Source: an uncultured Oscillospiraceae bacterium
GTDB lineage: Bacteria > Bacillota > Clostridia > Oscillospirales > Oscillospiraceae
Direction: 5' to 3'
Length of the DNA: 33,012 nt
Assembly (NCBI GenBank): GCA_944387075.1
Contig: CALXDO010000096.1
Location: 1 to 33,012, forward strand
Shown: piece by piece, positions 3,399 through 31,070 of the stretch
Numbering within the stretch: position 1 is the stretch's first letter
Layout of the letters: each line of letters opens with the position of its first letter
The notes under the pieces: generated by a model
Seen by the model: the letters and a program-made list of their open reading frames with translations, nothing else
Told to the model about the DNA's origin: nothing
Database searches by the model: none
Translations under genes and position numbers: made by a program

Positions 3399-4268
3399 AT
3401 GAAGCTCAAACGTATGATTCCCCTGGTGCTAGTACTTTTGATGATTTGCGCCCCCCAGGTGGCGTATGCCAACATGGCCGCACCTGCTGACCCGGATGTG
3501 GGCTCCTCCATCACCTTTCAGAAAAATGAGGAGATTTCGGTGCAGTCCGAGGTGTTGGACATCACGGTACACGGGGCAAAGGCGGATCTGGTGGCCACCT
3601 ACACCATGGAGAACACCACCGATGAGCGAGTGGTTACGCCCTCCATGTTTCTCTCGCCCAATCTGGAGGAGGGGGGTGTTCAGGTCCAGGTGCAAGGGGA
3701 GGATGTCCCCTTCACGGTGGATCAGTACGCCCTCAACTTCACCACGGAAATCCAGATGGAGGATTGGCAGTATCTGGTCCTGAGTGAGGACGCCGCCGAT
3801 CCACAGGGGCAAACCGTGGATGCCATCCGTTTTGAGTTGGCCTTGGAACCGGGGCAGCAGTCTCAAGTGGTGGTGTCCTACACCTATCGCCTGGGGGGCT
3901 ATCCAGACTACGATTTCAATGTCAAGCGGGGAGATTTGAAATACTATCTCCGGCCTGCCGCCCTGTGGAAGGATTTCTCCAGCCTGACCATCAACCTCTA
4001 TTTGGATGAGGAAATGCCGGTGCTGGCGTACAGCAATCTGGCCTTTGAAAAGGTTGGGCCTCGCACCTATCAATACACTTCGGATACTTTGCCGGAGGAA
4101 AATTTGAGCATTACCGTGGATGAGTCCTGGTGGCAAAACATCTTCAGTACGCTGCGCAACCCCTATTTGCACGCGGTGATGGTGAGTTTGGCACCGGTGA
4201 TCCTCATGGCACTGGTGTGTGTGTTTCTGATCGTCCGGCGTGTGCGCCGCGCCAAGAAGCACCAATAG
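3399..4268 (+). CDS. Secreted, C-terminally membrane-anchored protein of unknown function
   Basis: A 289-residue protein. Residues 1-25 are a typical signal peptide with a positively charged start, a leucine/valine core and a likely AYA cleavage site. Residues 26-255 form an extracytoplasmic region rich in valine, threonine and acidic residues, probably beta-sheet domains. Residues about 258-281 are a single membrane helix followed by the basic tail RRVRRAKK, so the bulk faces outside. The pattern recalls DUF4424-type proteins, but I do not recognise it firmly. AAGGAGAG precedes the ATG. It lies between a nitroreductase and a sensor kinase gene, and a strong hairpin follows. No enzymatic motif was seen. 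Confidence 0.75.
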   Translation: MKLKRMIPLVLVLLMICAPQVAYANMAAPADPDVGSSITFQKNEEISVQSEVLDITVHGAKADLVATYTMENTTDERVVTPSMFLSPNLEEGGVQVQVQGEDVPFTVDQYALNFTTEIQMEDWQYLVLSEDAADPQGQTVDAIRFELALEPGQQSQVVVSYTYRLGGYPDYDFNVKRGDLKYYLRPAALWKDFSSLTINLYLDEEMPVLAYSNLAFEKVGPRTYQYTSDTLPEENLSITVDESWWQNIFSTLRNPYLHAVMVSLAPVILMALVCVFLIVRRVRRAKKHQ

Positions 4269-12353: not shown

Positions 12354-13119
12354 TTTGGCCACGGGGGTGGCGCTGCGGCTGCATCACTGCGGGTTTCGGC
12401 TGCTCATGACCGACCTGCCCCAGCCCACGGCAGTGCGCCGCACAGTGGCACTGAGCCAGGCCATTTATGACGGTACGACCCAGGTGGAGGACATGGTGGG
12501 GCGGCACTGCACCACCCCGGAGGAGGTGTCTGCGACCTGGGAGCGGCGGGAGATCCCTGTTTTGGTGGACCCCCAGGGTGCCGCCTGTGAGAAATATCAC
12601 CCGGACGTGCTGGTGGATGCCATTTTGGCCAAGAAAAACCTGGGCACGTCCATGGATCAGGCCCCCCACGTCATCGCCCTGGGGCCGGGCTTTACCGCCG
12701 GGGGGGACTGCCACTGTGTGGTGGAGACCATGCGGGGACATACCCTGGGCCGGTGCATCCTCCAGGGCAGTGCCATTCCCAACACCGGGGTTCCGGGCAA
12801 CATCGGCGGCTACACCGTGGAGCGGGTGCTGCGCGCCCCCTGTGCCGGGGTGTTTTCCCCGGTGCGGGCCATTGGCGACATGGTGCAGGCCGGGGACACT
12901 GTGGCCTATGTGGAGGGCCAGCCGGTGGTGAGCACCATTTCCGGCTGCCTGCGTGGCCTTCTGCCCCAGGGGTGTGTGGTCACCACCCACATGAAGGCGG
13001 GGGATGTGGACCCCCGGTGCAAGCAAGAACACTGCTACACCGTCTCCGACAAGGCTTTGGCCATTGGCGGAGGGGTGCTGGAGAGTATCATGAGATGGAG
13101 GAGCGGCCCCCATGCGTGA
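12325..13119 (+). CDS. yqeB: Selenium-dependent molybdenum hydroxylase system protein YqeB
   Basis: A 264-residue protein. The N-terminus LILIRGAGDLATGVALRL is a Rossmann-like nucleotide-binding start; VIALGPGFTAGGDCHCVVET and the C-terminal biotinyl/lipoyl-like segment (APCAGVFSPVRAIGDMVQAG) are characteristic of the EF2563/YqeB family. It belongs to the marker set for selenium-dependent molybdenum hydroxylases; its reaction is unknown. The start is TTG at 12325, with GGAGGGGG about 7 nt upstream lying inside the end of yqeC. It overlaps xdhC by 8 bp. Confidence 0.92.
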   Translation: MLILIRGAGDLATGVALRLHHCGFRLLMTDLPQPTAVRRTVALSQAIYDGTTQVEDMVGRHCTTPEEVSATWERREIPVLVDPQGAACEKYHPDVLVDAILAKKNLGTSMDQAPHVIALGPGFTAGGDCHCVVETMRGHTLGRCILQGSAIPNTGVPGNIGGYTVERVLRAPCAGVFSPVRAIGDMVQAGDTVAYVEGQPVVSTISGCLRGLLPQGCVVTTHMKAGDVDPRCKQEHCYTVSDKALAIGGGVLESIMRWRSGPHA

Positions 13120-14101
13120 GTTATATACCAGTTTGCAGCAGCTGTTGCGCCAGGGCGAACCGGCGGTGTTGGTGTCCGCCTGTTCCCGGCCCCATCTGGG
13201 GTGGGAGATGGTATATCACGGCGGAGATATTCTGTGCCCCCCGGAGCAACGCAGCCTTTGGCAGCGGGTGTTTCCCCAGCTGTCCGGGGACGGCTTGCAC
13301 GCCACCGGGGGAGGGGAATTTTTTGTGCAGGCCATCGCCCCCACGCCTCGGCTCGTGATCTGCGGCAGCGGCTACATTGCCGCCGCCCTGAGCCAGCTGG
13401 CGGTGCATCTGGAGTTCTCCACCCTGGTGTTGGACGACCGGGCCCAGCTGTTTGACCAGATTTCCCCCAAGGCCGTCACTCGATGCGGTGCTTTTCCCCG
13501 GGTGCTGGAGGAGGTGCCCGTGGGGGGCAGCGATTTTTATGTGATTGTCACCCGGGGCCATGCCATGGATGAGGTGTGTTTGCGTTCTATTTTGCGCCGC
13601 CCCCACGCCTATGTGGGGATGATTGGAAGCCGCTCCAAAGTGGCGGCGGTGAAGGCCCACCTGGCAGCAGACGGCTGGAGCGAGGAACGGTTGGAAGAGG
13701 TGTTTGCCCCCATTGGCCTGGACATTGGGGCCCAGACCCCGGAGGAGATTGCCCTGTCCATTGCCGCCCAGCTGGTGCAGCAGCGGGCCCAGTTGGGGCT
13801 GGCTGCGGGACTTCCAGCCCAGGTGGTGGAGGCCATAGGACAGCCGCCCTTTGCCATGGTGACGCTGCTGACCAAGAAGGGCTCTGCGCCCCGCCGCCCC
13901 GGCACCCGCATGGTGGTGCGGCCTGATGGTACCACCTGCGGCACCATCGGTGGGGGCAAGATGGAACTGGAGGTGACCCGGCAGGCGGTACAATGCCTGC
14001 ATGATGGGGTGTGTGTGCGCGACACAGCGACACTGACCCCGGAGGGCGGCATGCTGTGCGGGGGTACATCGGAATATTTGGTAGTTCCGGTGTTGGATTA
14101 G
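13112..14101 (+). CDS. xdhC: XdhC-family molybdoenzyme maturation protein with C-terminal CoxI domain
   Basis: A 329-residue protein. XdhC proteins help insert (sulfurated) molybdenum cofactor into hydroxylases. The usual order is an N-terminal CoxI domain with GSxPR and an IGGG/SGGC motif, then a Rossmann domain. Here the Rossmann domain comes first (about 78-230: RLVICGSGYIAAAL, VLDDRAQL, YVGMIGSRSK, GLDIGAQTPEEIALSI). The CoxI domain follows (about 245-328: KKGSAPRRPGTRMVVR, GTIGGGKMELE, GGMLCGGTSEYLV). Residues 1-77 look like a remnant first CoxI domain lacking those motifs. It is the last gene of the selenium operon, overlaps yqeB by 8 bp and is followed by a strong terminator. Confidence 0.9.
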   Translation: MRELYTSLQQLLRQGEPAVLVSACSRPHLGWEMVYHGGDILCPPEQRSLWQRVFPQLSGDGLHATGGGEFFVQAIAPTPRLVICGSGYIAAALSQLAVHLEFSTLVLDDRAQLFDQISPKAVTRCGAFPRVLEEVPVGGSDFYVIVTRGHAMDEVCLRSILRRPHAYVGMIGSRSKVAAVKAHLAADGWSEERLEEVFAPIGLDIGAQTPEEIALSIAAQLVQQRAQLGLAAGLPAQVVEAIGQPPFAMVTLLTKKGSAPRRPGTRMVVRPDGTTCGTIGGGKMELEVTRQAVQCLHDGVCVRDTATLTPEGGMLCGGTSEYLVVPVLD

Positions 14102-17227: not shown

Positions 17228-18472
17228 ATGTCCAACTTGAAATATTGGGTGTGGTTGTCCACTCGAAAAGGACTGGCCGGGGTGTCCATGCAGCGGGTGC
17301 TGGAGCACTTTGGCACACCCCAGGGCGCATACTACGCCCGAGGCCAGGACGTGGAGGAGCTAACGTGGCTGCACGGGTATGTCCGAGCTTCTCTGCGGGA
17401 TAAATCCATGGCAGAGGTGGATCGGATTTTAGACCAGTGCGACCAGTTGGGCATCCGGGTGATGACCCGACAGGATGCGGCGTACCCCCAGCGGCTGGCG
17501 GCCATTGCCCAGCCGCCTCTGGTGCTCTACGCCAAGGGTCGGCCCCTGGTGCTGGATGACGAGGTGGCCATTGCCATAGTGGGCACCCGTAGCTGTACCC
17601 CCTACGGGGAGCGGGTGGCCCGGAAATTGGCCCTAGAGCTGACCCACGGGGGCGCGCTGGTGGTGTCTGGCATGGCTCAGGGGATTGACGCTGCTGCGGT
17701 GCGAGGGGCACTCATGGCCGGCGGCAGCGTGGTGAGCGTGGTAGCTGGTGGTTTGGATGTGGTATATCCCCGTTTTCACCGCCGCCTGTACGAAGATGTG
17801 GCGGCTTCGGGGCTGCTGTTGTCAGAGTATCCCCCGGGCACCCAGCACAAGGCGGGCCACTTCCCGGTGCGCAACCGGATTCTCAGTGGGTTATCCCTGG
17901 GCGTTGTGGTGGTGGAAAGCCCTCGCCGGGGCGGTGCACTGCTCACCGCCAACCATGCTCTGGATCAGAACCGAGACGTGTATGCGGTGCCCGGTGCGGT
18001 GGATGCCCCAGCCAGTGAGGGCACCAACCGGCTCATTCAGGAGGGAGCGGCCAAACTGGTCACCTGTGGGGAGGATGTTTTGTGTGAATGGCGGGATCGG
18101 TTTCCGGTGAAATTAGGGGTACAGGCCCCCATGGACCCCCAGGTGGTGGAACAGAGATTGCATCACCTGGAACAGGCACCACAGCCGGAACAACAGCCCC
18201 CCAACCCCCAAAACCGGGAAAAAGAGGTTGACAATCCCGAAAGCTTGGAATATATTGACTGGAAGGAGCGCAGACAGAGCCTGACCGACGACGAGCAGGA
18301 GGTGCTCCTGGCCCTGCAAGAGGGCGCGAAAGGAACGGATGACCTGGTGGAGCATACCCAACGGCCCGCTCGGCGGGTGCTGGCGGCGTTGACCATGCTG
18401 CAATTACAGGGGTATGTGACTCAGGGGAAGGATAAGAAATTCCGAACCGCGGTGAGATTAAAAATGGAGTAG
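17228..18472 (+). CDS. dprA: DNA-processing protein DprA (Smf)
   Basis: A 414-residue protein that binds single-stranded DNA and loads RecA during natural transformation. An N-terminal helical/SAM-like region (1-95) is followed by the Rossmann-like DprA core: VGTRSCTPYGERVARKLA, VSGMAQGIDAAA, VVAGGLDVVYPR, LLSEYPPGTQ, FPVRNRILSGLS, GALLTANHALDQNRDVYAVPG. A C-terminal winged-helix domain (about 345-410) follows a glutamine/proline-rich linker. GAGGGGGG precedes the ATG at 17228; the frame is open upstream into the methyltransferase gene, but that part does not match the family. dprA directly upstream of topA is a common order in Firmicutes. Confidence 0.95.
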   Translation: MSNLKYWVWLSTRKGLAGVSMQRVLEHFGTPQGAYYARGQDVEELTWLHGYVRASLRDKSMAEVDRILDQCDQLGIRVMTRQDAAYPQRLAAIAQPPLVLYAKGRPLVLDDEVAIAIVGTRSCTPYGERVARKLALELTHGGALVVSGMAQGIDAAAVRGALMAGGSVVSVVAGGLDVVYPRFHRRLYEDVAASGLLLSEYPPGTQHKAGHFPVRNRILSGLSLGVVVVESPRRGGALLTANHALDQNRDVYAVPGAVDAPASEGTNRLIQEGAAKLVTCGEDVLCEWRDRFPVKLGVQAPMDPQVVEQRLHHLEQAPQPEQQPPNPQNREKEVDNPESLEYIDWKERRQSLTDDEQEVLLALQEGAKGTDDLVEHTQRPARRVLAALTMLQLQGYVTQGKDKKFRTAVRLKME

Positions 18473-18478
18473 TTATCT

Positions 18479-20842
18479 ATGGGAAAAACGAATTTGGTGA
18501 TTGTAGAGTCGCCAGCCAAAGCAAAAACCATTGGAAAATATTTAGGACCCGGCTACCAGGTGAAGGCCTCCATGGGCCATGTGCGGGACCTGCCCAAAAG
18601 CAAGCTGGGGGTGGACGTGACCACCTTCGAGCCGGACTATCAGGACATCAAGGACAAAGAGGAGACCATTGCCGACCTGCGCAAAGCCGCCAAGGCCAGT
18701 GAGCGGGTCTATCTGGCCACCGACCCTGACCGGGAAGGAGAGGCCATCTCCTGGCACCTGCAATCGGTGCTGGGGGTTCCAAAGGAGAAGACCTGCCGGG
18801 TGACCTTCAACGAGATCACCCGCAAGGTGGTGACCGAGTCCATCGCCTCCCCCCGGGAGATTGACCAGAACCTGGTGGACGCCCAGCAGGCCCGACGCAT
18901 TCTCGACCGTATTGTGGGCTATCAGCTCTCCCCCTTGCTGTGGAAGAAGATCCGCCGTGGACTGTCCGCGGGCCGTGTGCAGTCGGTGGCAACCCGCCTG
19001 GTGGTGGAGCGAGAGGAGGAGATTCGGGCCTTCGTTCCCAAGGAGTATTGGTCCATTACCGCTGACCTGGGCCGCATTGCCCCCAACATTGGAGCCTTCC
19101 GGGCGGAGTTCTACGGACAGGACAAGAAGATGGAACTGGGCAGCGAGCAGGAAGTGCAGCAGGTGATGGATGCCGTAAAGGCAGGGACCTTTACGGTACG
19201 GGCCGTAAAACGCCAGGACAAAAAGCGCAATCCCGCCCCGCCCTTTATCACCTCCACCTTGCAGCAGGAGGCCTCCCGCAAGCTGAATATGACCCCACGG
19301 CGCACCATGTCGGTGGCCCAGCAGCTGTACGAAGGCGTGGACATCGCCGGGGAGGGCACTGTGGGTCTTATTACCTACATGAGAACCGACTCTCTGCGCC
19401 TGTCTGAGGAAGCTTTGGCCTCCGCCAAGACCTTCATTGAGGCCCGTTACGGCAAGGAGTACTATCCCGAAAAGACCCGCCACTTCAAGGCCAAGGACAG
19501 CGCTCAGGACGCCCACGAGGCCATCCGGCCCTCAGATGTGAACCTCACCCCTGAGCAACTGAAAAAGGACCTGACCAGTGAGCAGTACCGGCTCTACAAA
19601 CTGATTTGGAGCCGTTTTCTGGCCTGCCAAATGGCCCAGGCCATTTATGACAGCGTATCCATTGAGGTGGAGAGTGCCGGATACCAGTTCCGGGCCAGCC
19701 ACTCCTCCATCAAGTTCTCTGGCTTCACCGCGGTGTATGAGGAGAGTCGGGACGACGAGGACGAGGCGCCCCAGTCTCCGCTGCCCGATTTGAAGGAGGG
19801 GGAGGCGCTGCGTCTGGATCAGCTCAGCCCGGCCCAGCATTTCACCCAGCCCCCCGCCCGGTTCACCGAGGCCACCCTCATCCGAGCTTTGGAGGAGAAG
19901 GGCATTGGCCGTCCCTCCACCTACGCCCCCACCATCTCCACCATCACCGATCGGGAGTATGTGGTCAAGGAGGGCAAGCATCTGCGGCCAACCCCCCTGG
20001 GCGAAGTGGTGACAGGTCTGATGAAGGACAAGTTTCCCGATATTGTGGACCCTGCCTTCACCGCCCAGATGGAGCAGCGGCTGGACAAGGTGGAGACCGG
20101 CGAGGTGAATTGGAAACAGGTGCTCTCCGATTTCTACGGCGACTTTGACCGGGAGATGAAGAAGGCGGAGTCGGAGCTGGACGGAGAGCGGATCAAGGTG
20201 CCTGACGAGGTCTCGGAGGAGATCTGCCCCGAGTGTGGACGGAATTTGGTGGTGAAATCCGGCCGTTTTGGCCGTTTCCTGGCCTGCCCCGGCTGGCCGG
20301 AGTGCAACTTTACCATGCCTCTGGTGGTGGAGATGCCGGGCAAGTGTCCCCTGTGCGGGGGGCGTCTGGTCAAGCGCACCGGCACCAGTAAAAAGACCCA
20401 CAAGCAGTATACCTACTACTGCTGTGAGCACATCAACAGCAAGGACGAGAGCCGCCGGTGCGAGTTCCGCACCTGGGATGTGCCGGTGAAGGACTGCTGC
20501 CCTGAGTGCGGACACACCATGTTCAAAAAGGCTGGGCGCGGCTACAAGCGGCCCTTCTGCATCAACGAGCAGTGTCCCAACTTCCTGCCCGAGGAGAAGC
20601 GGGGCGGCTTCCGCAAGAAGACGGAAGAGGGGGAGACCGGGGACACCCCCGCCCAGGAGGCCCAGGAGGAGACCGGCAAGAAAAAGACGGCCACCAAGAA
20701 AACAGCTGCCAAAAAGTCTACCGCCACCAAGAAAACAGCGGAGAAGTCGGAGACGAAGAAGACTGCGGCCAAAAAGACGACCACTAAGAAAACCAGTGCC
20801 AAGACCGCCAAGGGGGCGGACGAGGCCGAGGGAGAAGCATGA
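18479..20842 (+). CDS. topA: DNA topoisomerase I with lysine-rich C-terminal tail
   Basis: A 787-residue type IA topoisomerase that relaxes negative supercoils. TOPRIM domain at the N-terminus ([25 protein letters not shown] at 81-88 gives the metal-binding acidic residues). The catalytic tyrosine is Y300 in [23 protein letters not shown] lies in the core. Three four-cysteine zinc-ribbon-like units span about 583-610, 624-662 and 672-700. Residues about 715-787 are a low-complexity tail built from KKTAAKK- and TKKT-like units ending in an acidic cluster, resembling histone H1-like tails and probably increasing DNA affinity. It starts 6 nt after dprA and overlaps trmFO by 4 bp. Confidence 0.97.
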
Positions 20843-22149
20843 ATACGAAGAATGTAACCATCATTGGCGCAGGGCTGGCAGGCTGTGAAGCGGCCTGGCA
20901 GCTGGCCCAGCGGGGGATTGGGGTGACCCTGCACGAGATGAAGCCCCACAAGATGACCCCCGCCCACCACAGCGCGGGCTTTGCAGAGCTGGTGTGCTCC
21001 AACTCTCTGCGCTCCGACCAGCTGGAGAACGCGGTGGGATTGCTCAAGGAGGAACTGCGCCGCTGTGGCTCGCTCATTCTGCGCTGTGCCGACCAGACCC
21101 GTGTGGAGGCCGGTGGTGCGTTGGCGGTGGACCGGGAGGCCTTTTCCCAGGCGGTGACCCAGGCGGTGCGGGAGCACCCCCTCATCACTGTGGTGGAGGG
21201 GGAGGTCACGGAAATTCCCCAGGGAGAGGTCATCATTGCCAGCGGCCCTCTCACATCGGAGGGACTGTCGGAGGAGATTGCCAAGCTGTTCCCGAACACC
21301 GGATATCTGAACTTTTACGATGCCGCCGCCCCCATTGTCACCTTTGAGAGCGTCGACATGGACCACGCCTGGTTTGCCTCCCGGTATGACCGGGGCACGG
21401 CGGACTACATCAACTGTGCCATGAGCCAGGAGGAGTATCTGGCCTTCTGGCGGGAACTGTGTCAGGCTGAGGAGGCCCCTGTCCACGGCTTTGAGGACGG
21501 CCGGGTGTTTGAAGGGTGTATGCCGGTGGAGGTCATGGCCCGCCGGGGAGAGCAGACACTGTGCTTTGGCCCCCTCAAGCCCAAGGGCCTGCCCGACCCC
21601 AAGACGGGGAAAGAGCCCTACGCTGTGGTGCAGCTGCGCCGGGACAACGCCCAGGGGACGCTTTACAACATCGTGGGCTTCCAGACCCATCTCAAATGGG
21701 GGGAGCAGAAGCGGGTGTTTTCCATGATTCCCGCTCTGGCCCACGCGGAATATGTGCGCTATGGGGTGATGCACCGCAACACCTATCTGGACTCGCCCCG
21801 TCTGCTGGACGCCTATTATCGGGTGCGGGGCCAGGAGCGCATCTGCTTTGCCGGACAGATCTCCGGCGTGGAGGGGTAGGTGGAATCCACCGCCTCCGGC
21901 TTTGTGGCCGGGGTGGAGCTGGCCAACCGCTTGCTGGGTAAGCCGCCGGTGGACTTCCCCCGGGAGACCGCCCTGGGCGCGCTGGCCCAGTATGTGAGCA
22001 ATGAGAGCGTGGTGGACTTCCAGCCCATGAACATCAATTTTGGGATTATGCCCTCCTTGGGTTACAAGGTAAAGGGAAAACGAAACAAAAACGCGGAGCT
22101 GTCCCGCCGCTCCCTGGAGCTGGTGGACACACTGCGCGAGAAGCTGTAA
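20839..22149 (+). pseudogene. trmFO: trmFO, tRNA U54 methyltransferase, interrupted by an in-frame TAG
   Basis: TrmFO uses FAD and methylene-tetrahydrofolate to make 5-methyluridine-54 in tRNA. The first part (20839-21879) gives 346 residues with the FAD motif [29 protein letters not shown] and the cysteine motif FEGCMPVE. It then meets TAG at 21877-21879 inside the FAD-binding GQISGVEG(Y)VES motif, where the family has tyrosine. The same frame continues without shift to 22149 (VESTASGFVAGVELANR, MNINFGIMP). Joined, it has the usual family length of about 436 codons. A C-terminal fragment could restart at GTG 21880, next to GGAGGGG. The gene is intact apart from this codon, so a recent nonsense mutation, readthrough or a sequencing error are all possible. 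It overlaps topA by 4 bp. Confidence 0.88.
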
Positions 22150-22164: not shown

Positions 22165-23226
22165 ATGAAGATCATTGTAGACGCCATGGGCGGGGACAAC
22201 GCCCCGGCCGCACCGGTGCGAGGGGCACTGGATGCCATGGCGGAATACGGTGTGGAAGTGGTGCTGGTGGGCCGCGGGGAGGAGATTCTGGAGGCCCTGA
22301 GCAAAGAGGGCAAGAGCGAGCTGCCGCCGGGGCTGGAAATCTCCCACGCCGACCAGGTGGTGGAGATGTGTGACAACCCCGCCACCGCCTTCAAGGAGAA
22401 GAAGGACTCCTCTCTAACCGTGGGCCTGAACCTGCTCAAAAGCGGGGCGGGAGACGCCTTTGTCTCCGCCGGTTCCACCGGGGCGCTGCTCTCCGCCGCC
22501 ACCCTGATGACCAAGCGCATCAAGGGTATTCGCCGTGCCGCTCTGGCTCCTGTGGTGCCCACAGGCACCGGTGGGGCCGTGCTCATCGACTGCGGAGCCA
22601 CCGCAGAGTGTACCCCGGAGTTCCTGCTCCAGTTTGCCTTTATGGGCAGCTATTATGCCGAGCGGGTGCTGGGCCGCCCTGAGCCCAAGGTGGGCCTTTT
22701 GAACATCGGGGCGGAGCCTTCCAAGGGCACTGACTTGCAGCGGGAGGCCTATGTGCTGCTGCAAAAGGCCTCCGATGAGGGGCGTATCAACTTTGTGGGC
22801 AATGTGGAGGCCCGGGAGGCGGTGTCCGGCAGCGTGGACGTGATTGTCAGCGACGGCTATTCCGGCAACATTTTCCTCAAGACCATGGAGGGTGTGGGTA
22901 TCTTTATGGGCCGGGAGATCAAAAAGATGTTCCTCTCCAGCCTCAAGACCAAGGTTGCCGCCCTGCTGGTGAAGGACGGGCTGCGCCAGTTTAAGAAGCT
23001 CATGGATTCCGGAGAGGTGGGAGGCACCCCGCTGATGGGAATTTCCAAGCCGGTCATCAAGGCCCACGGCTCTTCCGATGGCTTTGCCATGAAAAATGCC
23101 ATCCGTCAGGCCATGGAGTACAGCAAGTCCGGGATCATCGAAGACATCACGGAAAATGTGGAGTACATGCGCCTGCCGGTGAAGGGGCTGGCAAAAAAAC
23201 AGGAAGATGCAGGCCAGCCTGAGTAA
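22165..23226 (+). CDS. plsX: Phosphate acyltransferase PlsX
   Basis: A 353-residue enzyme that converts acyl-ACP to acyl-phosphate for phospholipid synthesis, peripheral to the membrane. MKIIVDAMGGDNAP at the N-terminus is diagnostic. SAGSTGALLSAATLM, LIDCGATAECTPEFL, LLNIGAEPSKG, VSDGYSGNIFLKT and GGTPLMGISKPVIKAHGSS follow in family order. GAGGAGG lies upstream of the ATG. The acpP gene follows after an 84-bp gap with its own promoter. Another lipid gene, plsC, lies about 9 kb downstream. Confidence 0.97.
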   Translation: MKIIVDAMGGDNAPAAPVRGALDAMAEYGVEVVLVGRGEEILEALSKEGKSELPPGLEISHADQVVEMCDNPATAFKEKKDSSLTVGLNLLKSGAGDAFVSAGSTGALLSAATLMTKRIKGIRRAALAPVVPTGTGGAVLIDCGATAECTPEFLLQFAFMGSYYAERVLGRPEPKVGLLNIGAEPSKGTDLQREAYVLLQKASDEGRINFVGNVEAREAVSGSVDVIVSDGYSGNIFLKTMEGVGIFMGREIKKMFLSSLKTKVAALLVKDGLRQFKKLMDSGEVGGTPLMGISKPVIKAHGSSDGFAMKNAIRQAMEYSKSGIIEDITENVEYMRLPVKGLAKKQEDAGQPE

Positions 23227-24385: not shown

Positions 24386-25198
24386 GTGGAAGTCCCGGTA
24401 TACCATCTGGATAAGGTGGTAAAAGTAAGAAAAGAGGACATGGAGGACTTCGACGGCCCTCTGGACCTCATTCTCCACCTGCTGAGCAAGAATAAAATTG
24501 AAATTCGCGACATTCCCATTTCTCTGCTGTTGGACCAGTATCTGGAGTGGATGGAGCAGCGGGAGCGGTTGAATCTGGAGGTGGCCAGCGAATTTGTCAT
24601 CATGGCCGCCCACCTGGTTTACATCAAAACCCGCATGCTGCTGTCCATCGATGACCAGGAGGCGCTGAGTGAGATGGAGCAGCTCATGGCGGCTCTGGAG
24701 GCACACCAGCACCGGGAGAGCTATGAGCAGGTGAAAGGGATTACCCAAGTGTTGGCGGAGCGGTATGTGCACGGGCAGGATTATCTCACCGGTCACCCCC
24801 AGCCCCTGCCCCAGGAGAAGACCTACCGGTATCAGCACCAGCCCCAGGATCTGGCGGCAGCCATGCTGCGCCTGTTTCAGCGGGGAGAGGGGGCGACGCT
24901 GTCTCCCACCCAGGCCTTTCACGGCATTGTGGGCCGGGAGCCATACCCGGTGGAGACCAAGGCCCGATGGATTTTGGATCAGCTGATGGCGGGAGGTGTG
25001 ACCCACTTCCGCGCCCTGTTTCGGGGCAATCAAAGCCGCTCAGAAATTGTGGCCACCTTTTTGGCGGTGCTGGAGCTGTGCAAATCCAACCAGATTTATC
25101 TGGCGGGAACCAGCGAGGACAGTACCCTGATCTGTACCAACCCCAAGGAGGAGCTTTCCCAAGAAACCGACGATGGAGGCAGCCAGACATGGAATTGA
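24386..25198 (+). CDS. scpA: Segregation and condensation protein A
   Basis: A 270-residue kleisin that bridges SMC heads with ScpB in chromosome condensation. The N-terminal motif FDGPLDLILHLLSKNKIEI is diagnostic, followed by SEFVIMAAHLVYIKTRMLL. The C-terminal winged-helix part reads VATFLAVLELCKSNQIYL. The start is GTG at 24386, with GGGGGAGAAG just upstream; a few residues precede the conserved core. It overlaps scpB by 10 bp. Confidence 0.95.
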   Translation: MEVPVYHLDKVVKVRKEDMEDFDGPLDLILHLLSKNKIEIRDIPISLLLDQYLEWMEQRERLNLEVASEFVIMAAHLVYIKTRMLLSIDDQEALSEMEQLMAALEAHQHRESYEQVKGITQVLAERYVHGQDYLTGHPQPLPQEKTYRYQHQPQDLAAAMLRLFQRGEGATLSPTQAFHGIVGREPYPVETKARWILDQLMAGGVTHFRALFRGNQSRSEIVATFLAVLELCKSNQIYLAGTSEDSTLICTNPKEELSQETDDGGSQTWN

Positions 25199-25791
25199 AG
25201 GAGTTGGAACACGCCATCGAGGGCATCCTATTTGCAGCTGGGGAGCCGGTAGCCATGGCACGCATGGCAGCAACCCTGAATCAGAATGTAAAGACGGTGG
25301 AGCAGGCGTGCTGCAATTTGGCGGACGAGTACCGGTTCCAGCGCCGGGGCATCTGTCTGGTGCGGACGGAGAACAGCTGGCAGATGTGTACCGCCCCGGA
25401 ATATGCCCCTGCCATTCGGCGGACCCTGGAGCACCGCAAGCCCCCCAAGCTGTCCCAGACAGCTCTGGAGGTGCTGGCCATTGTGGCCTACTTCCAGCCG
25501 GTGACCAGGACCTATATCGAGCAGATCCGGGGAGTGGACAGTGCCTATACCGTGGGGCTGCTGTTGGAGCGGCAGCTCATCGAAGAGGCGGGGCGGCTGG
25601 CCGTTCCCGGCAGGCCTGTGCAGTTTCGCACCACCCACAACTTCCTGCGCACCTTTGGACTGTCCAGCCTGGAGGAGTTGCCGGAGCTGCCCTCCCCCAC
25701 CCAGGAGGGCATCCAGATGACGCTGGACCTGGAATCCGCCATTACCAAGATGAAAGAGGAAGAGGAAGTGGAAAAGGCGGGTGAGGTATGA
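25189..25791 (+). CDS. scpB: Segregation and condensation protein B
   Basis: A 200-residue winged-helix protein that dimerises and binds ScpA. LEHAIEGILFAAGEPV opens the family fold; LSQTALEVLAIVAYFQPVTR and IEQIRGVDS are the central signature, and RTTHNFLRTFGLSSLEELPEL the C-terminal one. The frame is open further upstream but ATG at 25189 matches the family start and has GGAGG about 11 nt before it. It overlaps scpA by 10 bp and the DUF2953 gene by 4 bp. Confidence 0.95.
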   Translation: MELKELEHAIEGILFAAGEPVAMARMAATLNQNVKTVEQACCNLADEYRFQRRGICLVRTENSWQMCTAPEYAPAIRRTLEHRKPPKLSQTALEVLAIVAYFQPVTRTYIEQIRGVDSAYTVGLLLERQLIEEAGRLAVPGRPVQFRTTHNFLRTFGLSSLEELPELPSPTQEGIQMTLDLESAITKMKEEEEVEKAGEV

Positions 25792-26824: not shown

Positions 26825-26863
26825 ACTCCCATCTGATACCATTGGATGGGAGTGACCTTTTTT
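26825..26863 (+). terminator. Terminator after ytfJ, overlapping the next gene's start signals
   Basis: ACTCCCATC (26825-26833) pairs perfectly with GATGGGAGT (26845-26853), followed by GACC and TTTTTT. The right arm contains the GGGAG used as ribosome-binding site, and the T-run contains the TTG start codon of the next gene. Confidence 0.75.
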
Positions 26864-27998
26864 GAGGAGAATACTGGCCCTGTGCCTTTTTTTGACCATG
26901 CTGGTTGCCCTGTGTCCTCCGGCCAGGGCGGTTTCCACGTCCGCTTCCAGTGCGGTGTTGATGGATGCCGGTTCCCAGCGAGTGCTGTTGGATCAGGACA
27001 TGCACACCCCACGGCCCATTGCCAGCATCACCAAACTGATGACCGCGTTGGTGGCGGTGGAGGATTCCCCCGACCTGTCCCAGGAGGTGGAGGTGTCCGC
27101 CCAATGGCTGGAAGGGGTGGAGGGCTCCTCCATCTACCTCAAGGCGGGGGAGAAGGTCTCCCTGGAGACCCTGCTCTACGGCCTGCTGCTCCAGTCGGGC
27201 AATGATGCTGCCCAGGTGATTGCCTGCTGGGTGGCGGGGGATCTGGATGGATTTGCCCAGATGATGAACGAAAAGGCCCAGGAATTGGGCATGACCAACA
27301 CCCACTTTACCAATCCCAGCGGCTTGACGGAGGAGGGACACTACTCCTCGGCCTATGATATGGCGCTGCTGGCCTGCGCCTGTCTGGACAATCCGGTGGT
27401 GGCGGGCATTTGCGCCACCCAGACCATTGCTCTGGAGGGGCACACCTTCGTCAACCACAACAAGCTGTTGTGGCTGGAGGAGGACTGTGTGGGGATGAAA
27501 ACAGGGTATACCGAGGCCGCTGGGCGCACGCTGGTGTCGGCGGCTACCCGGGGCGCGCAGACTCTGGTGTGTGTCACCCTCAATGACCCCGATGATTGGG
27601 ACGACCACCAGGCCATGCTGGACTATGGCTTTGAGACGTACCCTGCCACCCAGCTGTGTCAACAGGGGAGTGAAGTGGGCCGGACTGCGGTGGGTGGAAG
27701 CTTGTGCCCCAATGTCTCCCTGGTGGCCCAGGGAGACGCCTGGTACCCGGTGGCGGAGGGGGAGCAGTTGGAGATGCAGCTGGATGTGTTCTCCCCCCTG
27801 GTGGCCCCCATTCCCCAGGGCACCCAGCTGGGCACTGCCCGGTGGCTGCTGGATGGGGAACTGGTGGCTGAAATGCCTGTGCTGGCCGGGGAGAACGTGG
27901 CGGACAACCAGTGGCAGCCCTCCTGGCTGCAACGATGGTGGATGGGCCTGTGGGGCAAAAAGTGGGAGTCCACAGTGCCGGGCATGGGCCTGATTTAG
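26862..27998 (+). CDS. D-alanyl-D-alanine carboxypeptidase (peptidase S11, DacF-like)
   Basis: A 378-residue secreted penicillin-binding protein that trims D-alanine from peptidoglycan stem peptides. A signal peptide covers residues 1-23. The S11 motifs are S55-I-T-K58, S112-G-N114 and K213-T-G215. The C-terminal part (about 255-350) is the beta-rich PBP5_C domain, followed by a tryptophan-rich segment that may act as a weak membrane anchor. The start is TTG at 26862: a stop lies 9 nt upstream in frame, and the next methionine would remove half the signal peptide. GGGAG lies 9 nt upstream, inside the ytfJ terminator hairpin. It ends in TAG. Confidence 0.92.
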   Translation: MRRILALCLFLTMLVALCPPARAVSTSASSAVLMDAGSQRVLLDQDMHTPRPIASITKLMTALVAVEDSPDLSQEVEVSAQWLEGVEGSSIYLKAGEKVSLETLLYGLLLQSGNDAAQVIACWVAGDLDGFAQMMNEKAQELGMTNTHFTNPSGLTEEGHYSSAYDMALLACACLDNPVVAGICATQTIALEGHTFVNHNKLLWLEEDCVGMKTGYTEAAGRTLVSAATRGAQTLVCVTLNDPDDWDDHQAMLDYGFETYPATQLCQQGSEVGRTAVGGSLCPNVSLVAQGDAWYPVAEGEQLEMQLDVFSPLVAPIPQGTQLGTARWLLDGELVAEMPVLAGENVADNQWQPSWLQRWWMGLWGKKWESTVPGMGLI

Positions 27999-28878: not shown

Positions 28879-29754
28879 GTGAGTCGTGATATTTTAACGT
28901 TAATTCAGAGCAATATGAGCTCTTTTTCCAAGGGACAGAAACTGATTGGACGGTATATCTTGGAAAACTACGACAAGGCGGCCTTTATGACAGCGGCCAA
29001 ACTGGGCCAGACGGTGTGCATCAGCGAGTCTACCGTGGTGCGCTTTGCCGCTGAATTGGGCTTTGACGGATACCCCTCCATGCAGCGGGCTTTGCAGGAA
29101 ATGATTCGCAGCAAGCTTACCACGGTGCAGCGCATTGAGGTGTCCAACGACCGGCTGGGAGACCATGATTTGCTGGAGAAGGTGGTGCAGTCGGACATGG
29201 AGAAAATCCGCACCACCTTGGAGGAGATGAGCCGAGAGGAATTTTCCGCGGTGGTGGATACCATTGTCAAGGCTCGCCACATATACATCTTGGGGGTGCG
29301 CTCCTCGGCGGCCCTGTCTGACTTTTTGACCTTCTATTTCAACCTGATGTTTGACAACATCCGCCAGGTCAAAACCACCCTGGCCAGCGAGATGTTTGAA
29401 CAGATGCTGCGGGTGGGCCATGGGGACGTGGTCATTGGCATCAGCTTTCCGCGCTACTCCACCCGCACAGTGCGGGCCATGGAGTTTGCCCGGGACCAGG
29501 GCGCCACGGTGGTGGCTCTCACCGACAGCTCCATGTCCCCCCTCTATGATACGGCCAATCTGCGGTTGCTGGCCAAGAGCGATATGGCCTCCTTTGTGGA
29601 CTCGCTGGTGGCGCCGTTATCCATCATCAACGCCCTGATTGTGGCGGTGGGGCGCAAGAAGTGTGCAGAGGTTACCGCCACCTTTGAGCACCTGGAGCGC
29701 ATCTGGGATGAATACCAGGTGTACGAGAAGGTGGAGTACGACGGGAAGGGATGA
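28879..29754 (+). CDS. MurR/RpiR family transcriptional regulator
   Basis: A 291-residue regulator. Residues 1-77 form the HTH_6 DNA-binding domain (GQKLIGRYILENYDKAAFMTAAKLGQTVCISESTVVRFAAELGFDGYP). Residues about 115-260 are a SIS sugar-phosphate-binding domain (IYILGVRSSAALSDFL, DVVIGISFPRYSTRTVRAMEFA, VVALTDSSMSPL). Such proteins respond to phosphosugars. The start is GTG at 28879, with GGAGG 8 nt upstream; the frame is open further upstream but that part is not like the family. No sugar catabolic gene is adjacent, so its target may be elsewhere. It overlaps the flavoprotein gene by 4 bp. Confidence 0.92.
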   Translation: MSRDILTLIQSNMSSFSKGQKLIGRYILENYDKAAFMTAAKLGQTVCISESTVVRFAAELGFDGYPSMQRALQEMIRSKLTTVQRIEVSNDRLGDHDLLEKVVQSDMEKIRTTLEEMSREEFSAVVDTIVKARHIYILGVRSSAALSDFLTFYFNLMFDNIRQVKTTLASEMFEQMLRVGHGDVVIGISFPRYSTRTVRAMEFARDQGATVVALTDSSMSPLYDTANLRLLAKSDMASFVDSLVAPLSIINALIVAVGRKKCAEVTATFEHLERIWDEYQVYEKVEYDGKG

Positions 29755-31070
29755 GACGTGTGGAAAACACCCCAGTAAGACCGAATGTCACCGAAAAGGA
29801 GCCCCCCATTCTGGTGGTGGGTGCGGGAGCGGCAGGCATGATGGCGGCCATTTCCGCGGCCCGACAGGGGGCGCAGGTGGTGCTGCTGGAGCCCAATGAG
29901 AAGGTGGGGCGTAAGCTGTATATCACAGGGAAGGGGCGGTGCAACGTCACCAACCACTGCTCTCTGGAGGAGCTGATGGCGGCCATTCCCCGCAACGGAA
30001 AGTTTTTGTACAGCGCTCTGTCTCGGTTTGACGCCCAGGCCACCATGGACTTTTTTGAGGACCTGGGGGTGAAGCTGAAAGTGGAGCGGGGGAACCGAGT
30101 GTTTCCCGCCTCGGATAAGGCCGCCGACATCATTGACGCCCTGTTTTTTGAGCTGCGCCGCCAGGGGGTGGAGTTGCAACAGGACCGGGTCACCGGGCTT
30201 CAGGTTCACCAGGGCCAGGTGGTGGGGGTTACCACCCGGCAGCAGCCCCAGGGCATCCCGGCCTCCTGGGTGATTGTGGCCACCGGCGGGGCCTCCTATC
30301 CCCGTACCGGCTCCACGGGGGACGGCTACCAGCTGGCCCGGCAGGCGGGACACCAGGTGGTGCCGCCCCGAGGATCTCTGGTGCCCTTGGAGTCTCCCAA
30401 CCCCTGTTGTCAGCGGATGCAGGGCTTGGCCCTGCGCAACATTCTGCTGCGGGTGAAAAACAAAAAGGGCAAGGTGATTTACCAGGAGATGGGGGAGATG
30501 CTCTTCACCCATTTCGGCCTCTCCGGCCCTCTGGTGCTCTCCGCCTCCGCCCACATGAACTTTGAACGGGACCACTATACCGTACACATGGACCTGAAGC
30601 CCGCGTTGGATGAGGGCAAGCTGGATGCCCGGCTGGTGCGGGACTTCACGGACCGGGCCAACCAGAACATGGGCAACGCCCTGGGTGGGCTGCTGCCCCA
30701 GTCTATGATTCCAGTGGTGGCCCAGCGGGCGGGGATTCCCCTGGACACCAAGGCCCACGACTTGCGGCGGGAGCAGCGGCGCAGACTGCTGGAAGTGCTC
30801 AAGGACTTTACCGTGGACATCTCCGGCCCACGCCCTGTGGAGGAGGCCATTGTCACCGCCGGTGGAGTGAAGGTGGGGGAGATTGACCCCAAGACCATGG
30901 CGTCCAAGAAGGTGGAGGGTCTGTCCTTTGCCGGTGAAGTGTTGGACGTGGACGCCTACACCGGCGGGTTTAACCTGCAAATTGCCTGGGCCACCGGCTG
31001 GGCAGCCGGTCAGGCGGCGGCAGAACATCAAGAAAAAAGGATGGCGCGGCAGTATGAATCACTATCATAG
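29751..31070 (+). CDS. HI0933/BaiN-family NAD(P)/FAD-dependent oxidoreductase
   Basis: A 439-residue flavoprotein. The FAD dinucleotide motif VVGAGAAGMMAA lies at 22-33. EKVGRKLYITGKGRCNVTN is the family hallmark, VIVATGGASYPRTGSTGDGY the second flavin loop, and AGEVLDVDAYTGGFNLQIAWATG the C-terminal flavin contact. Members are widespread; one, BaiN, has been linked to bile-acid reduction, but most have no known substrate. ATG at 29751 overlaps the regulator's stop codon; its purine-rich GGGAAGGG is directly adjacent, so GTG at 29760, with better spacing, may be the true start. Confidence 0.9.
   Translation: MRRVENTPVRPNVTEKEPPILVVGAGAAGMMAAISAARQGAQVVLLEPNEKVGRKLYITGKGRCNVTNHCSLEELMAAIPRNGKFLYSALSRFDAQATMDFFEDLGVKLKVERGNRVFPASDKAADIIDALFFELRRQGVELQQDRVTGLQVHQGQVVGVTTRQQPQGIPASWVIVATGGASYPRTGSTGDGYQLARQAGHQVVPPRGSLVPLESPNPCCQRMQGLALRNILLRVKNKKGKVIYQEMGEMLFTHFGLSGPLVLSASAHMNFERDHYTVHMDLKPALDEGKLDARLVRDFTDRANQNMGNALGGLLPQSMIPVVAQRAGIPLDTKAHDLRREQRRRLLEVLKDFTVDISGPRPVEEAIVTAGGVKVGEIDPKTMASKKVEGLSFAGEVLDVDAYTGGFNLQIAWATGWAAGQAAAEHQEKRMARQYESLS

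Follow-up and report, generated by a model that had tools for sequence, protein, structure and literature searches.

The trmFO gene in the window, the 33,012-nucleotide stretch of DNA analysed here, is interrupted by a single in-frame TAG at the codon for a conserved flavin-stacking tyrosine. We attribute the interruption to one nonsense substitution, either an error of the assembly consensus or a very recent null mutation, with a probability of about 0.9. The window is contig C96 of the draft genome G000, which has 134 contigs and 2,270,428 bases in all, at a completeness of 87.97 and a contamination of 0.76, and was probably assembled from a metagenome. The gene, its two neighbours and the elements at the stop lie as follows.

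18479..20842, plus strand: topA, the upstream neighbour, intact (TIGR01051, E 1.1e-242; open frame aligned to relatives).
20839..21879, plus strand: N-terminal piece of trmFO, 346 codons and the TAG (NF003739, E 6.3e-171; TIGR00137, E 1.1e-158; PDB 3g5q, E 1.8e-116; omega 0.030-0.062).
21870..21876, plus strand: GGAGGGG, a Shine-Dalgarno-like run just 5' of the TAG and of a GTG (duplex energy -9.8 kcal/mol).
21877..21879, plus strand: premature TAG at the conserved flavin-stacking tyrosine, the equivalent of Thermus thermophilus Tyr343 (frame reading, relatives, PDB alignment).
21880..22149, plus strand: C-terminal piece of trmFO in the same frame, 89 codons and TAA (TIGR00137, E 4.7e-21, profile positions 346-430 of 433; NF003739, positions 348-436 of 441; omega 0.011-0.065).
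22165..23226, plus strand: plsX, the downstream neighbour, intact; it served as the control gene (TIGR00182, E 3.2e-98).

The split reading of trmFO proposed in an earlier note on this DNA, a frame from 20839 cut once and continuing to 22149, was confirmed by reading the frame and by the NCBIfam TrmFO profile NF003739. Beyond the stop, the frame runs on to a TAA at 22147-22149 and ends REKL*. The N-terminal piece covers NF003739 positions 2-346 and scored 569 bits against a cut-off of 262 (528.6 against 428.65 for TIGR00137), while the C-terminal piece alone scored 75.1 and 72 bits and continues at profile positions 346 and 348 of TIGR00137 and NF003739, respectively; together the two pieces match the curated TrmFO models over their whole length. 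Since only one column of NF003739 is absent between the pieces, no frameshift or gap is needed, and the single substitution suggested by the earlier note suffices. A genome-wide search with the TrmFO family also reported a match in this genome with "1 TAG" inside. When a second trmFO copy was sought in G000, only a 25-base match was found beyond the trmFO locus; the genome's other weak TrmFO family match sits in a 765-residue frame that is probably the paralogue MnmG.

The closest characterized protein is TrmFO (Gid) of T. thermophilus, a folate/FAD-dependent tRNA m5U54 methyltransferase (PDB 3g5q/3g5r/3g5s), which the window's gene resembles in its family match over both pieces and in retaining both catalytic cysteines in the N-terminal piece. 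The query motifs VCSNSL and FEGCMP align with VCSNSL and FEACVP of T. thermophilus, whose C51 and C223 are described as catalytic in PMC7226160. The N-terminal piece aligns to residues 3-342 of 3g5q and, as the alignment ends at residue 342, the stop corresponds to residue 343. It is here that the two proteins differ: Tyr343 is absent from the window's TrmFO, its codon being TAG. In the account of PMC7226160, Tyr343 lies stacked against the isoalloxazine ring and is essential for keeping FAD in its active redox state.

Comparison with relatives supported the substitution. Among 28 readable same-genus loci, the codon was TAT in 21 and TAC in 7, bearing out the earlier note's statement that the family has tyrosine at this place. 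In total, 30 trmFO loci were compared, 29 of them readable at this codon when G000 is included; the remaining locus (L032, genome G011) was missed by the search motif, and the trmFO match of its genome had no internal stop in the family search across the genus. That search placed trmFO over the cut-off in 36 of 42 genomes, 35 of which had no internal stop, with G000 as the sole exception; for one of the 36 (G023), the match ends before the stop position and its other piece, below the cut-off, has no stop. The exact degenerate pattern with TAG matched 1 of the 42 genus genomes, namely G000. Among named relatives, Pseudoflavonifractor sp. An44 is the closest, with a TrmFO protein 97% identical; judged by such relatives, the bacterium is probably Flavonifractor/Pseudoflavonifractor-like. 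Across the order, 313 of 394 genomes had trmFO over the cut-off and, among the matches listed, one other genome (G285) has an internal stop, a TAA. Judged from these sequences, the TAG looks private to G000 among the relatives examined.

Both trmFO pieces bear normal signatures of purifying selection. Pairwise dN/dS values against six relatives (given above for each piece) were among the lowest of the window, and no further lesion was present in either piece, which indicates that trmFO was functional until recently. The same comparison gave no sign of relaxed selection, at low power: the relatives lie at dS of ~0.4-0.6, so a fresh nonsense change would not show and omega would stay low anyway. 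Elsewhere in the window, one listed open reading frame (25173-25784), with pairwise dN/dS values of 3.0-4.6, is probably spurious; an overlapping frame, 24967-25791, matches ScpB.

These observations leave two origins for the substitution. In our estimate, there is about an even chance that the base was miscalled in the draft assembly's consensus. It is somewhat less probable that the stop is genuine, a loss-of-function mutation that arose very recently in the sampled strain. The earlier note had described the event as recent, suppressed or an error; the first and last of these stand, and suppression gained no positive support, for reasons given below.

Isolated stops of this kind are a background in the draft genome. 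Coding-score scans, family searches and comparison with relatives together led us to accept three mid-gene stops with frames open on both sides in G000: the trmFO TAG, a TAG at C68:12014 and a TGA at C117:17480. The second (C68:12014-12016, minus strand, L172) lies in a GH2 beta-galactosidase of ~2,200 residues at the Glu of its WSTGNE motif, which is GAG in three close homologues; we take this Glu, that of the GH2 'GNE' motif, to be probably the catalytic acid/base. The third (C117:17480-17482, minus strand, L240) interrupts another large GH2 protein and is Arg in the homologue of the isolate genome G010. In both accepted TAG stops the codon lost is that of an active-site residue, the Tyr that stacks on the flavin in one and the GH2 Glu in the other, a mild coincidence that speaks against a mere error or fresh mutation. 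Codon usage makes TAG the commonest expected product of one-step nonsense changes, with a share of 0.61-0.64, which is enough to account for its preponderance. The control gene plsX is essential in Bacillus subtilis; of its 37 matches over the cut-off in the genus, one contains an internal stop: in G024 (C103, L158) an in-frame TAG stands at codon 156, where the window's copy has CAG (Gln).

Accepted stops were counted with a two-way tblastn comparison. For G000, 164 of 636 query frames matched, with 57,706 residues aligned, and 3 of 20 raw stops were accepted; for the An44-like isolate G010, 165 of 788 frames matched, with 55,764 residues aligned, and none of 8 was. The difference is suggestive only, as such small numbers do not prove that G000 has more stops than the isolate. 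The 17 G000 hits set aside comprised one gene end (L212, C38) and 16 hits from nine query frames, four with Pfam domains starting after the stop and five without a Pfam match; all 8 hits of G010, from seven frames, were set aside likewise, five frames having domains that start after the stop and two having no Pfam match. Where a Pfam domain begins only after the stop, the stop precedes the likely start; frames in which Pfam matched nothing were judged to be spurious. In G000, 944,490 bases (the window and 60 stretches totalling 911,478; 42% of the genome) were scanned by coding score, which flagged 67 stop positions, and a stricter scan flagged 24 in 649,200 bases. On reading, with Pfam or relatives added for some, most of the flagged stops look like ordinary gene junctions.

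Several other stops were seen along the way. First, a probable in-frame TAG at C104:39694-39696 (minus strand, L230) immediately follows GNEVDEGRGYWM; the piece after the stop carries an arabinofuranosidase C-terminal domain, and the short one before it matches nothing in Pfam. Second, the L212 gene, presumably RNA methyltransferase-like, ends in TAG at C38:7901-7903; the ~40 in-frame codons after it (HIEVELNLDELHLTVAESKATYEEIKAYVLEHTGLKVS) resemble a degenerate C-terminal tail of a different kind, and the tail of the G010 homologue differs. Third, a TAG at C41:9103 and a TGA at C17:3111 sit in G000 genes that, by reading, look otherwise broken too.

Two published patterns resemble what we found. 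According to PMC11017572, assembly errors and low coverage account for many of the internal stops seen in assemblies; the likeness lies in isolated base-level stops within otherwise intact conserved genes of a draft assembly, and the window's TAG may have such an origin. In-frame stops in selected bacterial genes are described as common and short-lived in PMC7918605, and the window's stop likewise lies inside a gene under purifying selection. That study kept stops common to at least 2 species, whereas the window's TAG was common to none found.

How UAG is decoded in this genome bears on the rival explanations. Release factor RF1 is present at C124:13286-14335 (504.2 bits), full length, over the cut-off and without an internal stop; across the genus, 38 of 42 genomes passed this cut-off. 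A search for PylS (TIGR02367) in the 88%-complete G000 gave no match; over 14 control genomes, the same search gave one over the cut-off. The earlier note had proposed looking for an amber-suppressor or pyrrolysine tRNA, and no CUA anticodon was present among the 37 tRNAs found in G000 by a family search followed by ARAGORN on loci covering all 37 (L114-L148), a result limited by the incompleteness of the set. None of the 37 is for Met, Ile, Trp, Glu or Asn, which means that the assembly lost part of its tRNA genes; the absent CUA tRNA therefore says little alone, and an unseen suppressor is possible. The case against recoding is accordingly carried by RF1, by stop usage and by the privacy of the stop. 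As to stop usage, the 23 listed genes of the window end in TGA (12), TAA (6) or TAG (5), the last group being the following.

3399-4268: gene without an NCBIfam match.
13112-14101: xdhC-like gene.
17228-18472: dprA.
26862-27998: carboxypeptidase gene.
29751-31070: flavoprotein gene.

The first four had already been named as TAG-ending in the earlier note, and its conclusion that TAG is not recoded genome-wide agrees with the intact RF1, the lack of a PylS match and this stop usage.

The alternative that survives best is amber suppression or near-cognate readthrough, by which a real TAG would be decoded by some ribosomes as Tyr, Gln or another residue and some full-length TrmFO would be made. 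The dN/dS values of both pieces, which look selected, would fit such a gene, as would tRNA-Gln(CUG) and tRNA-Tyr(GUA), both found in G000 and possible near-cognate readers of UAG, and an incomplete tRNA set in which a CUA tRNA could be missed. In-frame stops with dN/dS below 1 are also widespread in bacteria, according to PMC7918605. However, low omega is expected anyway for a fresh mutation at these distances, the tRNAs found, the PylS search and the intact RF1 give no sign of a suppressing system, and a G000 gene is interrupted by TGA too (the GH2 gene on C117). Conservation of the stop among orthologues, as expected of programmed or selected readthrough, was found in 0 of the 28 readable relatives, the pattern being confined to G000 among 42 genomes. 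We therefore consider readthrough improbable. Slightly less probable still is its fuller form, in which a real TAG, fixed in the species, would be read through in part, keeping TrmFO low and possibly regulated, with the inserted residue exactly at the flavin-stacking position of the active site.

A split enzyme is a yet fainter prospect. Translation would stop at the TAG and restart at the adjoining GTG (21880) by way of GGAGGGG, and the two chains might assemble. The pairing of this run with the anti-Shine-Dalgarno sequence falls within the range of the listed window starts, 8 of 24 of which (one start doubtful) equal or beat it, as do 7.0% of 71 NTG triplets scanned in or just past trmFO, its own GTG included; since the pairing is comparable to that of window starts, a restart at the GTG is possible. 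Yet all 29 loci read have the GTG, the 28 without the stop included, and the preceding codons are near-identical, as in ordinary coding sequence, so the GGAGGGG before the TAG is probably conserved coding sequence placed there by coincidence. The arrangement with the stop occurs in one genome only, and the junction would lack the flavin-stacking tyrosine, described as essential for the FAD redox state in PMC7226160. The remaining alternative, reassignment of UAG to pyrrolysine or another residue throughout the genome, could draw on the in-frame TAGs of the G000 GH2 gene and the G024 plsX, and was rejected on RF1 (full length here and over the cut-off across most of the genus), PylS, the anticodons of the incomplete tRNA set, the stop usage of neighbouring genes and the differing residues of relatives at the three stops (Tyr, Glu and Gln), making it the least credible of all.

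Returning to the single nonsense substitution, if the TAG is real, ribosomes would terminate at UAG with RF1 and release a 346-residue product. Without the flavin-stacking tyrosine and the last 89 residues, this product should be inactive and the tRNAs should be without m5U54, a loss tolerated by bacteria. The gene would then add to the natural trmFO nulls, and its sole use would be as an example of m5U54 loss. Should the TAG be an error, it is a warning against reading single in-frame stops of draft genomes as recoding; either origin leaves knowledge of stop-codon decoding unchanged. A literature search on trmFO nonsense, pseudogene and readthrough gave no trmFO paper among the matches listed.

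TrmFO is dispensable under optimal growth, as stated in PMC5954106. A precedent for its loss is Spiroplasma citri, in which trmFO is a pseudogene and tRNA is without m5U, according to PMC7226160. As there, trmFO is broken in a single lineage; the window's gene differs in showing only one substitution, in a draft genome, and no other decay. In the search across the order, three nearly complete genomes, G054 (99%), G081 (98%) and G100 (98%), were only weakly matched (E 4e-14 to 4e-17). Many genomes under the family label f19 in the order set, several of them 97-99% complete, likewise had weak trmFO matches only, a pattern suggesting that some lineages of the order have lost m5U54 methylation of tRNA.
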